From: Sediminicola luteus | GTDB lineage: Bacteria; Bacteroidota; Bacteroidia; Flavobacteriales; Flavobacteriaceae | Length of the DNA: 64,000 bases | Assembly (NCBI RefSeq): GCF_002514735.1 | Contig: NZ_NBWU01000004.1 | Span: forward strand, 372,001 to 436,000 | Direction of reading: 5' to 3' | In this document: positions 14,450 through 28,504 of the stretch, piece after piece | Layout of the letters: each line of letters begins with the position of its first letter | Position numbering within the stretch: position 1 is the stretch's first letter | The notes under the pieces: model-generated | The model's input: only the letters and a program-made list of their open reading frames with translations | What the model was told of the DNA's origin: nothing | Databases searched by the model: none | Position numbers and translations under genes: made by a program

Positions 14450-14534
14450 TAGTGTAATTAAAAAAAAGGAGTTAATTTTTTCATTTTCATAGTGTTCTCG
14501 TAAAAGGGTCTTGGCCATACACCAAGACCTTTTT
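14450..14534 (+). ncRNA. Candidate small RNA, copy 1 of a tandem duplication
   Basis: A block of about 80 bases after the promoter-like box. It has a purine-rich start, a conserved core (GTTAATTTTTTCATTTTCAT then AGTGTTCTCGTAAAAG) and a terminator hairpin GGTCTTGG (14507-14514) / CCAAGACC (14522-14529) with a T run at 14530-14534. No ORF of useful length is present. The whole arrangement recurs at 14682-14763. A leader or transcript end of another kind is possible, but no gene follows on this strand. Confidence 0.5.
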
Positions 14535-14649
14535 CTTTGCCCTTAATTGAAACCCTTAGATATAGCCCTAACTCCAGTGGGTAATCAAAACAAGAAAATC
14601 GTAAGAATTGGACTACTTACCACAATTTCTCCTAAGTTCACAACAAAAC

Positions 14650-14681: not shown

Positions 14682-14763
14682 CAGTGTAATATTAAAGGAA
14701 GTTAATTTTTCATTTTCATAGTGTTCTCGTAAAAGGGTCTTGGTCAAAAACCAAGACCTTTTT
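14682..14763 (+). ncRNA. Candidate small RNA, copy 2 of a tandem duplication
   Basis: The core of copy 1 is repeated nearly base for base, with the hairpin GGTCTTGG (14736-14743) / CCAAGACC (14751-14758) and T run 14759-14763. The loop differs (TCAAAAA against CCATACA) while the stem is identical, as expected if the stem is under selection. The hairpin may also serve as terminator for menB on the other strand, whose stop is 49 bases away. Confidence 0.5.
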
Positions 14764-14811
14764 CATTTTTCACTATTCCCAAAATTAATAAAGCCTTCTG
14801 GTATTCCGCCC

Positions 14812-15699: not shown

Positions 15700-16395
15700 A
15701 TTATTCAATGTACCCCTGTAACGATGTACCAATTTGTTAATGTGTTAATTTGAAGATGGGTTAGAAAGTTCGAAGTACCAAGTGGGAAGTACGAAGTGAA
15801 AAAAATTAGTGGAATTCGTGAAATTTGGGTCAAACTGTGTTAATGGAGCAATTTAGTAATGTATCGATGTAGCTATGGGGTAATTTGATGATACACCGAT
15901 TTGAAGATTTGAAAATGAGTTGATTTGAAAATGGGGCAGAAAGTTCGAGATACCAAGTGGGAAGTACGAAGTGGAAAGAAAAAATTAGTAGAATTCCTGA
16001 AATTCGTGTCAACCCGGATGAATGTTGCAATTTAGAAATGTATCGATGTAGCTATGGGGTAATTTGATGATACACCGATTTGAAGATTTGAAAATGAGTT
16101 GATTTGAAAATGGGGCAGAAAGTTCGAGATACCAAGTGGGAAGTACGAAGTGGAAAGAAAAAATTAGTAGAATTCCTGAAATTCGTGTCAACCCGGATTA
16201 ATGTTGCAATTTAGAAATGTACCGATGTAGCAATGGGGTAATTTGATGATACACCGATTTGAAAATTTGAAAATGAGTTGATTTGAAAATGGGGCAGGAA
16301 GTTCGAGGTACCAAGTGGGAAGTACATTAGTGTAATTAGCCGAATTCGTGTAAACCAGTGTTAATGAAGCAATTTTACAATGTACCGATTGGTAG
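15700..16395. repeat. Tandem array of a 179-bp repeat
   Basis: Equivalent positions (GTATCGATGTAG or GTACCGATGTAG) occur at 15861, 16040 and 16219, giving a period of exactly 179 bases. Two copies are nearly identical, a third is slightly diverged, and degenerate partial copies stand at both ends. Each unit is a patchwork of three simple motifs: GATTTGAAGATTTGAAAATG-like, GTGGGAAGTACGAA and TTAGTAGAATTC. It fills the gap between menB and the glycosyltransferase gene. ORFs inside are repeat artefacts. Confidence 0.9.
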
Positions 16396-19787: not shown

Positions 19788-19904
19788 CTCTTTTTCTTCT
19801 GGAAGGTAAAAATAACCGAATGTGGCGAATTGGCCATACAGTAAACTACCTCGGTGTATTCGCACGAGACATATGAACCAAATATGTATTTTATTAAAAG
19901 ACAA

Positions 19905-19926
19905 GCCTGCCTACTTTTTGGCAGGC
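19905..19926 (-). terminator. Possible hairpin GCCTGCC/GGCAGGC upstream of DUF6155
   Basis: GCCTGCC (19905-19911) and GGCAGGC (19920-19926) form a 7-bp stem; on the minus strand a T-rich stretch follows. It may be a second terminator for the operon above or a leader structure. The evidence is weak. Confidence 0.35.
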
Positions 19927-19960
19927 AAGCCTCGAGGTATTAAACCCTTTTGGCGGTGCC

Positions 19961-19985
19961 AAAAAAAACCGCCTCTGGGGCGGTT
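19961..19985 (-). terminator. Rho-independent terminator ending the small-ORF unit
   Basis: On the minus strand AACCGCC pairs with GGCGGTT (19967-19973 with 19979-19985), followed by eight T residues (19961-19968). It stands 23 bases after the stop of the second small ORF. Confidence 0.8.
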
Positions 19986-20008
19986 CAAATCTTTATGGTT
20001 GAATTGTA

Positions 20009-20110
20009 CTAATAGTAACTCAAACGGTTAATGTTCTGATCATTTAGAATCTCATTCAAATCCTGAATAAAATTCAAGTAGGCTGCATTGTCTTGATTCT
20101 TGTTCATCAT
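20009..20110 (-). CDS. Small protein of 33 residues, paralogue 2
   Basis: Frame from ATG at 20110 (a second ATG at 20107) to TAG at 20009, with the sequence core AAYLNFIQDLNEILNDQNI. It aligns residue by residue with the ORF at 20151-20249 (YLNFIQDLNEIL against YLKFLKELNEIL), with conservative changes. This is stronger evidence for coding than length alone. The predicted fold is a single amphipathic helix. There is no signal peptide. It lies downstream of the YaiO gene on the same strand and before a terminator. Function is unknown. Confidence 0.55.
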   Translation of the reverse strand: MMNKNQDNAAYLNFIQDLNEILNDQNINRLSYY

Positions 20111-20150
20111 ATAATTCAATTTAGATTTGGGGTCTTTCTTACGCGAGCAT

Positions 20151-20249
20151 TTATAGGTAATCGAGCTCTATTAACTCATTAACGCTTAAAATCTCATTTA
20201 ATTCTTTGAGGAACTTTAAATATTCCTCACCATAGGTGTCATACAACAT
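20151..20249 (-). CDS. Small protein of 32 residues, paralogue 1
   Basis: ATG at 20249, TAA at 20151. The core GEEYLKFLKELNEILSVNEL matches paralogue 2. The two stop-to-start gap is 40 bases, consistent with one transcript. Its start lies 137 bases past the stop of the YaiO-like gene, without a terminator between them, so it may be the end of the exopolysaccharide operon. Coding status is inferred from the conserved pair; translation has not been shown. Confidence 0.55.
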   Translation of the reverse strand: MLYDTYGEEYLKFLKELNEILSVNELIELDYL

Positions 20250-20385
20250 AGATTAAATAAATAGGTCAAAAAAATTGTTTTGTAAATGGGGACTATAAAC
20301 ATATGTATTTCTAGCGGTTGTTACAAGTAAAATGTGGTGAAGCCCCTTATTTCTGTTGTGAATATGACCCCACTTTACCGTTCGT

Positions 20386-21648
20386 CTAGAATCGGGTGGT
20401 AAATCGGAGTCCGGCCGATACGCTCCAATAAAAACGGTCGGCATCGAATACCAATTCCTGATGTTGCACACCAAGCTGGAATTTCCATAAATCACGGCCT
20501 TTTGCCGCCGGCATCTGATAGTCTAGGAACAACTGCCTGGATTCTAAATACAATACGGTTTTCGACAAAAGCTCGCCATCTACCACCAACTGTTTAAAAT
20601 CGGGCATAAACCCATAACCAGCAATCAATCCCAAATATTGTTTTGGTCTTTTACCATACTTTCGGGCGGTAAGCGTCATTGAAAAACTAGGTTTGGCATC
20701 GGGAATCGGCGTTACATAAGGGCGGGCACTAAAATAATAGTCCCCGGAATACAAGCCCAAGGAACCCGTGTAAATCAAGGATGAGGAAGAATCGCTAAAA
20801 TCGTAGAAGCGACCACCCAACGAGGCCTCCATTTTATTCGGGAAGCTTTTGTAGACCTCTGCCCTAGCCCTATGCCTCGGGAAAATCGTGGCCCCTGAGT
20901 AAGCATAGGCCACATCGGCATACACATCCTTCCCGAATTTCGGGTAGACCTCACCTCCTATTTGCAGCCCATTGGTATTAAATCTGTTGGCAAAATCGGT
21001 CTGTACCGCCCATTTACCCCATTCCGATTCTTTGGCATAGCGTAGACTTAGGGTTACAGCAGGATCATATACAATATCATAAACCTCCAAGGTGCTACCC
21101 ACCTCTATTTCTTGCTTACGTACCTTCTCATCCAATTGTTTCTGTAAACCTTGTACAGCAACATCTTCCGGATGGCGAACCCTATAATTGTCTATGTATT
21201 CCTGGGCCATATCCGGTACATCCATAGCCACTAAGACCTGACTCTTTAAGCGTTGTAAACGGGCGTCTAGGGGTAAATACTTTAATGCTTTATTACACAA
21301 ACCCAAGGCTACAGTAAGGTTCTGGGCATAGATCTCATTTTTTATGGCTGCTTCCCAAACCTCTAAATTGCGTCTTTCTTTCGAGGTGATTTTATTGAAC
21401 TCCTTTCTGGCCTGATCATATTTGCCTTCCCAGCTTAAGGTTTTGGCCAACAGGTTACGAACATCTGCATAGTTCGGATACGCTTCCAAAATACGGTTTA
21501 AAGTATCCCTCGCCTGTGTTCTTTTTCCGGAGAAGGCCATTTGCCTGGCATTAAAAAAAGATTCATCTGGGTTGCCCTGATATGCCAAATCTTGGGCCCA
21601 CATAAAATGTACCCCGAAACAAAACCAAAAACATAGTATTATTCTCAT
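20386..21648 (-). CDS. YaiO family outer-membrane beta-barrel protein with TPR region
   Basis: 420 residues. Signal peptide 1-18 (MRIILCFWFCFGVHFMWA). Residues 20-165 hold tetratricopeptide-like helices (QARDTLNRILEAYPNYADVRNLLAKTLSWEGKYDQARKEF). The rest, from about 180, is the YaiO-type barrel: many aromatic strands ending in WSVSAGLRFTTRF with a terminal Phe, the outer-membrane insertion signal. It is last in the polysaccharide operon and starts at the stop of the TPR membrane protein (TAATG). It probably forms the outer-membrane exit pore of a surface polysaccharide. Confidence 0.87.
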   Translation of the reverse strand: MRIILCFWFCFGVHFMWAQDLAYQGNPDESFFNARQMAFSGKRTQARDTLNRILEAYPNYADVRNLLAKTLSWEGKYDQARKEFNKITSKERRNLEVWEAAIKNEIYAQNLTVALGLCNKALKYLPLDARLQRLKSQVLVAMDVPDMAQEYIDNYRVRHPEDVAVQGLQKQLDEKVRKQEIEVGSTLEVYDIVYDPAVTLSLRYAKESEWGKWAVQTDFANRFNTNGLQIGGEVYPKFGKDVYADVAYAYSGATIFPRHRARAEVYKSFPNKMEASLGGRFYDFSDSSSSLIYTGSLGLYSGDYYFSARPYVTPIPDAKPSFSMTLTARKYGKRPKQYLGLIAGYGFMPDFKQLVVDGELLSKTVLYLESRQLFLDYQMPAAKGRDLWKFQLGVQHQELVFDADRFYWSVSAGLRFTTRF

Positions 21649-26167: not shown

Positions 26168-26542
26168 TTAATGCCTGATTTTTAGTTCTTTTCTCACCCT
26201 AGCCGTTAGTTCGGAAGGATTAACGGGTTTGGTCACAAAATCGTTGGCCCCCATATCGAAGGCATCAAGTACGTTTTTTTCATTTCCGGCAGACGAAATC
26301 ATGATAATAGGCATTTTAGAACCCAATTCATTTCGAACATGGTCCAGTAGCTCGAAGCCCGACATATAGGGCAACATAATATCACAAATGAAAAGATCCG
26401 GAAGCCCAGATTCCAATTGGGTCATTACCGTTTTTCCGTCCGGGGCCACAACCACCTCGAAACCTTCTTTTTGAAGTCTATACTCCAAGAGTCTGGCCAG
26501 CATTTCATCGTCTTCAGCAAGTAATAAGCGTGTCTTCATCAT
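26168..26542 (-). CDS. Single-domain response regulator
   Basis: 124 residues from ATG 26542 (ATG 26539 is also possible). A receiver domain only: the acidic pair in LLLAEDDEML, the phosphoacceptor Asp in LFICDIMLPY, the Thr/Ser in IMISSAG, and Lys in VTKPVNP. There is no output domain, so it must act by protein contact, perhaps on the HEAT protein or synthase encoded next. It is the likely target of the hybrid kinase encoded 20 bases upstream. Confidence 0.92.
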   Translation of the reverse strand: MMKTRLLLAEDDEMLARLLEYRLQKEGFEVVVAPDGKTVMTQLESGLPDLFICDIMLPYMSGFELLDHVRNELGSKMPIIMISSAGNEKNVLDAFDMGANDFVTKPVNPSELTARVRKELKIRH

Positions 26543-26561
26543 CAATCCGCAATGGGGTTCC

Positions 26562-28334
26562 TTACATATCCAATTCCGTCATTTTTCGATCTAGGGCCGC
26601 ACTAACCAAGGGAAACTCCTCCACAAAGCATCCGTAAAGGAATTTAATGTGTTTTACATCTGGCTCTTGCTCACAGGCCGGTTGTAGCTGACAAACCAAT
26701 TTATGCAGGTTATGTACCTTTAGCATCGCCAGACCCGCCTTTATCTTGTGACAGCCTTGGGCTATACTATCCATATCGCCATTGTCTAAGGCAATTCGGG
26801 TTTTACCGATAAACTCCAGGCAGTTTTGTTTAAACAACCGTACCAGCTCGGCCAATAAGGTCTTATCGCCCATACATTCTTCCAAAACCGCCTTCAGATC
26901 TAATGCAGTTCCGTTATCGGATGGCATACCTCCTTCTAAGCTAAAAGCTCCGGATTCCCTTGTTTCCATATCTTCATTATAAGTTTTGGCCCAACATAAT
27001 TTCCCCATCAACTCTTTGGCGCTATAGGGTTTTAACAAATAATCTTGAATTCCGTAAGCCTCACAAGCCTCACGATCTTTAATACCGAAATCGGCCGTTA
27101 CGGCGATTACCGGCACTTTTCGAATATGTTCCAGTACATGGTTACGGATACGTTCCGTAGCCTCGAAACCATTGATTCCCGGCATTCGCAGATCCATCAG
27201 AACCAAATCTATTTCTTGTATAGTCAACAGTTTTAGGGCATCTTCGGCATTTGGAGCCAAAAACACCTCACAATCCCAAGCGTCTAACCTCTTAAGGAGT
27301 AGTTCACCATTCATAGGGTTGTCTTCTACCACCAATACTTTGGTTCCGGCAATCTTGCGAATATCTTTCAGACTGACCGTTTCCGAAGTATTGGAATCAG
27401 ACTTGGCCTTAGAATTCCCTTTGACCCTATAAGGCAGACTAAAGGTAAAGGTGGTGCCCACACCAGGCCTACTGGCCACGGCCAAAGAACCGTTTTGATT
27501 CTCTATGATTTCTTTTACGATACTAAGCCCTAACCCATAACCACCCACATTGGCGCAGCGTTCTTTGGAACCTTGGGAATACGGCTCGAATATTTTGACG
27601 AGATCTTCTTTAGCAATACCCGAACCGGTATCACTTACTTGAAAATCGAGTTCTACATAGTCTTCGAGACGTTTTTCTAAACTGACTTTTAAACAAATCT
27701 CACCTTCTGTAACGAATTTGATGGCATTGCCCAAAAGGTTCAACAATACCTGGGAAAGCTTGGACGGATCACCGATTACGGTTTCAGGGATATTGGGGTC
27801 TATATCGATCTCCAAACGCACCTCCTTCCCCAAGATGAGGGTATTACAGAGGTACATGGCATTTCTAACGATACTGAACGGATTAAACTCCACTTGCTCG
27901 GCAGGTACCATCCCCTGACCAAGCTGGGTATATTCCATAAGTTCATTCACCAAATCCAGCAAATTGAAGGAAGCAACCTTTATTGCCTTTAAAAATTCGT
28001 TTTGTTCTTGATTAAGTTCGGTCTCCGAAAGAAGTTGGGTAAACCCTAAGATACCATTCAAAGGAGTTCTTAATTCGTGGCTAACCTTAGCCACCAAGGC
28101 CAAATCTTCACGTTGGTTATCGGCCTTACCTTCTTCCCCTTGAACGCCAATTACGTACCCGTCGGGGTTCCAGTTGGCTTTGGGGTTATATACTTTTTCC
28201 TCTAGTCGGTCTTTAAAGTGGCTAAACGAGTTTTTTAAACGAGAAGCCTCCTCTAAGGAAAGTTCTTCGTACGAAAAGCTCTTCAACTTACCTTCTAGAT
28301 CCGATAATTGTGATAATAGTTCCCTGGTATCCAT
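26562..28334 (-). CDS. Hybrid histidine kinase with receiver and Hpt domains
   Basis: 590 residues from ATG 28334 (the frame extends to a GTG at 28376). No membrane span. Domain order: N-terminal coiled region; HisKA with KVSHELRTPLNGILG; HATPase with GNAIKFV, DTGSGIAKE and GYGLGLSIV; receiver with VVEDNPMN, LVLMDLRMPG and LLKPYSAKE; and a C-terminal Hpt with GCHKIKAGLAM. A full phosphorelay can therefore run within one protein to the single-domain regulator. It is first in the polysaccharide operon and should control synthesis in response to a cytoplasmic or partner-borne signal. Confidence 0.92.
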   Translation of the reverse strand: MDTRELLSQLSDLEGKLKSFSYEELSLEEASRLKNSFSHFKDRLEEKVYNPKANWNPDGYVIGVQGEEGKADNQREDLALVAKVSHELRTPLNGILGFTQLLSETELNQEQNEFLKAIKVASFNLLDLVNELMEYTQLGQGMVPAEQVEFNPFSIVRNAMYLCNTLILGKEVRLEIDIDPNIPETVIGDPSKLSQVLLNLLGNAIKFVTEGEICLKVSLEKRLEDYVELDFQVSDTGSGIAKEDLVKIFEPYSQGSKERCANVGGYGLGLSIVKEIIENQNGSLAVASRPGVGTTFTFSLPYRVKGNSKAKSDSNTSETVSLKDIRKIAGTKVLVVEDNPMNGELLLKRLDAWDCEVFLAPNAEDALKLLTIQEIDLVLMDLRMPGINGFEATERIRNHVLEHIRKVPVIAVTADFGIKDREACEAYGIQDYLLKPYSAKELMGKLCWAKTYNEDMETRESGAFSLEGGMPSDNGTALDLKAVLEECMGDKTLLAELVRLFKQNCLEFIGKTRIALDNGDMDSIAQGCHKIKAGLAMLKVHNLHKLVCQLQPACEQEPDVKHIKFLYGCFVEEFPLVSAALDRKMTELDM

Positions 28335-28504
28335 GTTTGCATCTTTGCCGAATGTTGTAAGAATGGTTGTAGCCACCTAACCACATTCCGCTTTAGTTTA
28401 GACCCAAGGTTCATATAAGGCGTTATACCGCCAATTATTTGTTATATACCCACCCAAAAGTGTTGTATAAATACGTATTTTGTGGGCATAACTAAGTAAC
28501 CACT

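Follow-up and report, generated by a model that had tools for sequence, protein, structure and literature searches.

BcsR and BcsF are small subunits of cellulose synthase. A tiny protein of another kind is Sda of Bacillus subtilis, a 46-aa inhibitor of KinA and KinB (PMC8534201). On the side of transcription, LytTR sites consist of 9-bp repeats placed 12 bp apart just upstream of a promoter, often of the ACCAC type (PMC6193735), and the sigma-A promoters of flavobacteria carry a -7 box with the consensus TAnnTTTG (PMC9723704). A locus that invites comparison with these systems lies in a 64,000-nucleotide stretch of the genome of Sediminicola luteus (contig NZ_NBWU01000004.1), here called the window. 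It holds two very short genes, A and B, whose products fall below the size of usual gene calls and match nothing in Pfam, NCBIfam or the PDB (Table 1).

Table 1. Coordinates of the microprotein genes, their promoter and neighbouring features in the window
Feature	Position	Strand	Remarks
Microprotein gene A	20151-20249	minus	32 aa, MLYDTYGEEYLKFLKELNEILSVNELIELDYL; basis: ORF and translation, family conservation, pN/pS 0.10
Microprotein gene B	20009-20110	minus	33 aa from ATG at 20110, MMNKNQDNAAYLNFIQDLNEILNDQNINRLSYY; basis: ORF, B in 51/56 loci, pN/pS 0.27
Direct repeat, upstream half-site ACAACAGAA	20351-20359	minus	
Direct repeat, downstream half-site ACCACATTT	20330-20338	minus	
-33-type element TTG	20324-20326	minus	20 nt from -7 box
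-7-type box TATGTTTA	20296-20303	minus	sigma-A type, compare TAnnTTTG
YaiO barrel gene	20386-21648	minus	Pfam YaiO E 3.4e-55; upstream neighbour, outside the putative A-B unit
Intrinsic terminator 1, after gene B	19966-19986	minus	
Intrinsic terminator 2	19903-19932	minus	
Hybrid histidine kinase (HisKA, HATPase, receiver, HPt)	26562-28376	minus	N-terminal domain (50 aa) found alongside the pair
Single-domain response regulator	26168-26545	minus	same operon as hybrid kinase

A preliminary description of this DNA proposed that the two ORFs encode paralogous microproteins, and this is borne out. Both contain the motif YLxFxxxLNEIL, their ungapped BLOSUM62 score of 53 was matched by none of 20000 shuffles, and hhalign relates family A to family B with a probability of 95.5% (E 1.4e-8); the similarity is far beyond chance. 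The alignment had also been called gap-free, which holds for the core, whereas MAFFT sets one gap near the N-terminus. An alternative TTG start upstream of the ATG of gene B would lengthen its product to 36 aa.

The pair is widespread within one family. A two-sequence profile recovers it in other genera of Flavobacteriaceae (E 1e-16 to 1e-9), and a profile of ORF-A matches 74 of 397 sampled family genomes in 44 of 237 genera, mostly at 1e-17 to 1e-20; a phylum-wide search gave no convincing member outside the family. Genera with the microproteins include Allomuricauda, Flagellimonas, Robiginitalea, Maribacter, Arenibacter, Croceitalea, Muriicola, Eudoraea, Euzebyella and Pseudozobellia. Among 56 loci read closely, 51 carry A followed by B at a distance of 18-60 nt (locus L114 being counted here), and five carry A alone. 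From these A-only genomes B is absent genome-wide; a single match below 0.01, in G326, turned out to be A.

Had relatives shown stops or frameshifts, or had purifying selection been lacking, this would have spoken against these ORFs; instead, all 56 loci have an open frame for A and 51 of them one for B. For A, 50 sequences give an average pN/pS of 0.10, and 44 sequences of B average 0.27; with synonymous sites near saturation, the real values are probably lower still. A is extremely well conserved, with 18 of its 32 positions invariant among 50 A+B sequences. It is therefore almost certain, as far as comparative sequence can tell, that A and B are genuine coding genes under purifying selection. 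That they are instead leader peptides, or incidental ORFs on a small RNA, might be suggested by their shortness, their place between operons and the single conserved element upstream. Residues are kept while codons vary freely, however, and this codon pattern refutes the idea; the window shows two strong terminators downstream of B, a search of its whole length against Rfam returned no match, and a non-coding origin is thus extremely improbable.

The distribution also hints at how the pair came about. In an rpoB tree, the A-only genera g22 and g102 sit on basal branches of the family, outside a clade (support 100/99) that comprises all ten A+B genomes used together with G057, which has A only. 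Because A-only genera branch basally, the simplest reading is that A would be the older gene and that B arose through its duplication. On the same simplest reading, B would have been lost in G057, and A in the sister clade that carries neither gene.

Across relatives, the synteny of A and B is kept together with an upstream element, as the sequences show. In 50 of the 56 loci, this nearly invariant element begins 90-151 nt upstream of A and reads TT-n-ACAACA-aaAa-N8-TwCACCACAwTT-t-r-TTG, followed after mostly exactly 20 nt by TAnGTTTA; the A-only loci are without it. It can be parsed as a 9-12-9 direct repeat (ACAACAnAA-N12-ACCACAnTT, period 21) abutting TTG-N20-TAnGTTTA, and in the window a one-base displacement against the repeat affects the TTG and the -7 box alike, which leaves the N20 spacing intact. 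The repeat (20330-20359) occurs once in the window, against 0.06 copies expected by chance, and in eight genomes searched the copies away from the pair were two-mismatch ones only, at about the rate of a reversed control pattern. The A-B pair thus very probably has its own promoter, and transcription would start from a sigma-A-type TTG-N20-TAnGTTTA sequence. The two 9-bp direct repeats, 12 bp apart and just upstream of this promoter, have the arrangement of LytTR sites, and a candidate activator, most likely of the LytTR family, would bind there and drive the pair. Other repeats in the window include an intergenic tandem array at 15732-16389, with a 179-bp unit in three full copies (87-100%) and partial ones at both ends, and two 74-bp copies at 14465-14538 and 14694-14767 that are 89% identical, lie 229 bp apart and each bear an apparent terminator hairpin.

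Upstream of the pair runs a polysaccharide operon with the order hybrid kinase, receiver, HEAT protein, GT2, TPR protein and YaiO. The preliminary description placed the microproteins at its end, with no terminator after YaiO and a strong one behind the second ORF. Those observations stand: there is no terminator-like site between the end of YaiO at 20386 and A, and B is followed by two strong terminators. As a position, the end of the operon is correct; as a transcription unit, it is not upheld. Apart from the promoter, 13 of the 51 A+B loci have a gene on the opposite strand between YaiO and the pair, so that co-transcription with the synthase genes does not hold generally, while some read-through from YaiO into the pair is possible in the window. 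The intervening gene F20 (L033, L038, L073 and others) encodes about 430 aa and by eye resembles a glycerophosphodiester phosphodiesterase. A and B thus appear to form a self-standing two-gene unit rather than the tail of the polysaccharide operon.

The same evidence bears on the suggestion that the microproteins are small accessory subunits of the glycan synthase formed by GT2, the TPR protein and YaiO. In most relatives the pair does neighbour YaiO, which lies upstream at 44 of the 51 A+B loci. Nevertheless, linkage to the synthase genes is not strict, with no YaiO in the stretch read at seven A+B loci (L032, L071, L081, L092, L097, L103 and L108), six of which still have the kinase upstream, whole or reduced. 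Moreover, A alone occurs away from any such operon, and neither protein has a membrane segment. Because of the separate promoter, the intervening gene in 13 relatives and the seven loci lacking YaiO, the subunit proposal is unsupported; it is already largely refuted by the losses and very improbable.

For the products themselves, AlphaFold2 predicts one helix each, spanning residues 2-31 in A and 4-24 in B (pLDDT 76-77). The 18-residue helical moment of A is 0.37-0.50 for windows starting at residues 1-8, the net charges are -6 for A and -2 for B, and inspection finds no signal peptide or membrane span in either. Each product would accordingly be a single acidic cytosolic helix. Searches of Pfam, NCBIfam and PDB sequences gave nothing usable, PDB matches at E 0.2 or worse being regarded as chance; the peptide MLYDTYGEEY was not found in paper texts, and literature searches for YaiO in flavobacteria and for small proteins of this clade returned nothing on the locus. 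Interpretations as RiPP precursor, toxin-antitoxin system or leader peptide were dropped in view of strict residue conservation, the non-hydrophobic character of A and B and the lack of a maturase-like gene among the Pfam-scanned neighbours. Regulators, a class already offered in the preliminary description, seem the likeliest: A and B would act in trans by binding another protein, as small regulators of signalling or transcription and not as synthase subunits. The leading candidates for that partner are the neighbouring phosphorelay and a sigma factor.

The N-terminal 50-aa domain of the upstream kinase has 64 strong matches in the 397 genomes, and all 64 fall among the 74 genomes with A. In several relatives the kinase core is lost or split, with the N-terminal domain and HPt often left upstream; such trimming, in one piece or split, was noted in L097, L103, L210, L213-L216 and L221. 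Co-occurrence is nonetheless weak evidence, because one genome (G411) keeps the pair without the domain and the A+B genomes tested form a single clade; it may reflect common descent alone. G411 also has no close receiver homologue, and A alone is kept in five genomes without the domain. By hhalign, the B profile is weakly similar to the kinase N-terminus (7%, P 0.005; 6 of 1000 column shuffles) and the A profile shows no similarity, so kinship with the domain, suggestive for B and absent for A, is not claimed. The best window-wide matches of both profiles are to the HEAT-repeat protein of the kinase operon and were taken as generic helix similarity. By analogy with Sda, the target of A and B might be this phosphorelay, through the kinase N-terminal domain and HPt, which is the most likely single partner even if, taken alone, the assignment is doubtful.

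On the other side, 49 of the 51 A+B loci have a convergent rpoD after the pair, which could mean that A and B target RNA polymerase or a sigma factor and tune the use of a second or the canonical RpoD. The adjacent gene is indeed a second paralogue: genomes tested that have it also carry a canonical copy elsewhere, and twelve adjacent-type copies are set apart from the canonical ones in that set of genomes with support of 100/100. The convergent second paralogue was noted downstream of the pair in relatives L268-L277. Against such a role, the genome of the window keeps A and B with a canonical RpoD (G000:C4) and a 59% relative (G000:C1) and no adjacent-type copy, a single RpoD of canonical type is present in those A-only genomes where the protein was found, and convergent neighbours need no functional link. 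Action on RNA polymerase or RpoD is accordingly quite unlikely. In three genomes lacking A (G010, G014 and G024), no A-like ORF turned up next to the RpoD copies. In two genomes that do not have the pair (L290 and L294), a short ORF resembling ribosomal protein S21 by eye comes downstream of one of the two RpoD copies.

Both neighbourhoods might also be no more than inherited position, with A and B binding each other and a core, family-wide target in the ribosome, division or metabolism. Two findings fit such a target: A-only genera keep A in three settings that are unrelated to one another, and none of the neighbours is present throughout. The tight retention of the locus with rpoD and the kinase in dozens of genera, on the other hand, suggests more than chance order, even though gene order is also kept among related genomes. 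A core target is unlikely, if far from negligible. The phosphorelay ranks ahead of it and of RpoD by a small margin. Taken together, the favored account of a self-standing, activator-controlled regulatory pair that would act in trans, most likely on the phosphorelay, is tentative as a whole and falls somewhat short of an even chance. More tentative again is the broader proposal that A and B represent a new, unannotated family of helix-only paired regulators in marine Flavobacteriaceae, that each genome switches them on through a single dedicated LytTR-type promoter, and that they determine the output of either a phosphorelay or a duplicated housekeeping sigma factor. At 32 and 33 aa, the proteins had been overlooked in this marine family. 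With one promoter, two genes and two candidate targets, they offer a precise and easily tested case of microprotein regulation in Bacteroidota, within marine environmental genera, and at their locus a duplicated RpoD and a hybrid kinase that has been trimmed repeatedly have stayed together.

Compared with the small subunits of glycan synthases such as BcsR and BcsF, A and B share the location of a small protein gene beside a GT2 synthase locus, but they have a promoter that is probably their own, persist where synthase genes are missing and have no membrane segment. Like Sda, A and B are predicted to be tiny cytosolic helical proteins, and their genes lie near a histidine kinase phosphorelay. 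They differ in being a paralogous pair of 32-33 aa, each with one helix predicted at moderate confidence rather than a helical hairpin; no sequence relation to Sda was found, nor did the Pfam, NCBIfam and PDB sequence searches link them to any known family or any solved structure, and binding of a kinase is a proposal by analogy. The control region compares best with LytTR-activated promoters such as those of hdrRM and brsRM (PMC6193735). Although the A-B promoter is of the flavobacterial TTG/TAnnTTTG and not the -35/-10 type, the repeat sits closer to it and the LytTR regulator is here putative, the two have in common a 9-12-9 direct repeat directly upstream with an ACCAC-type half-site.
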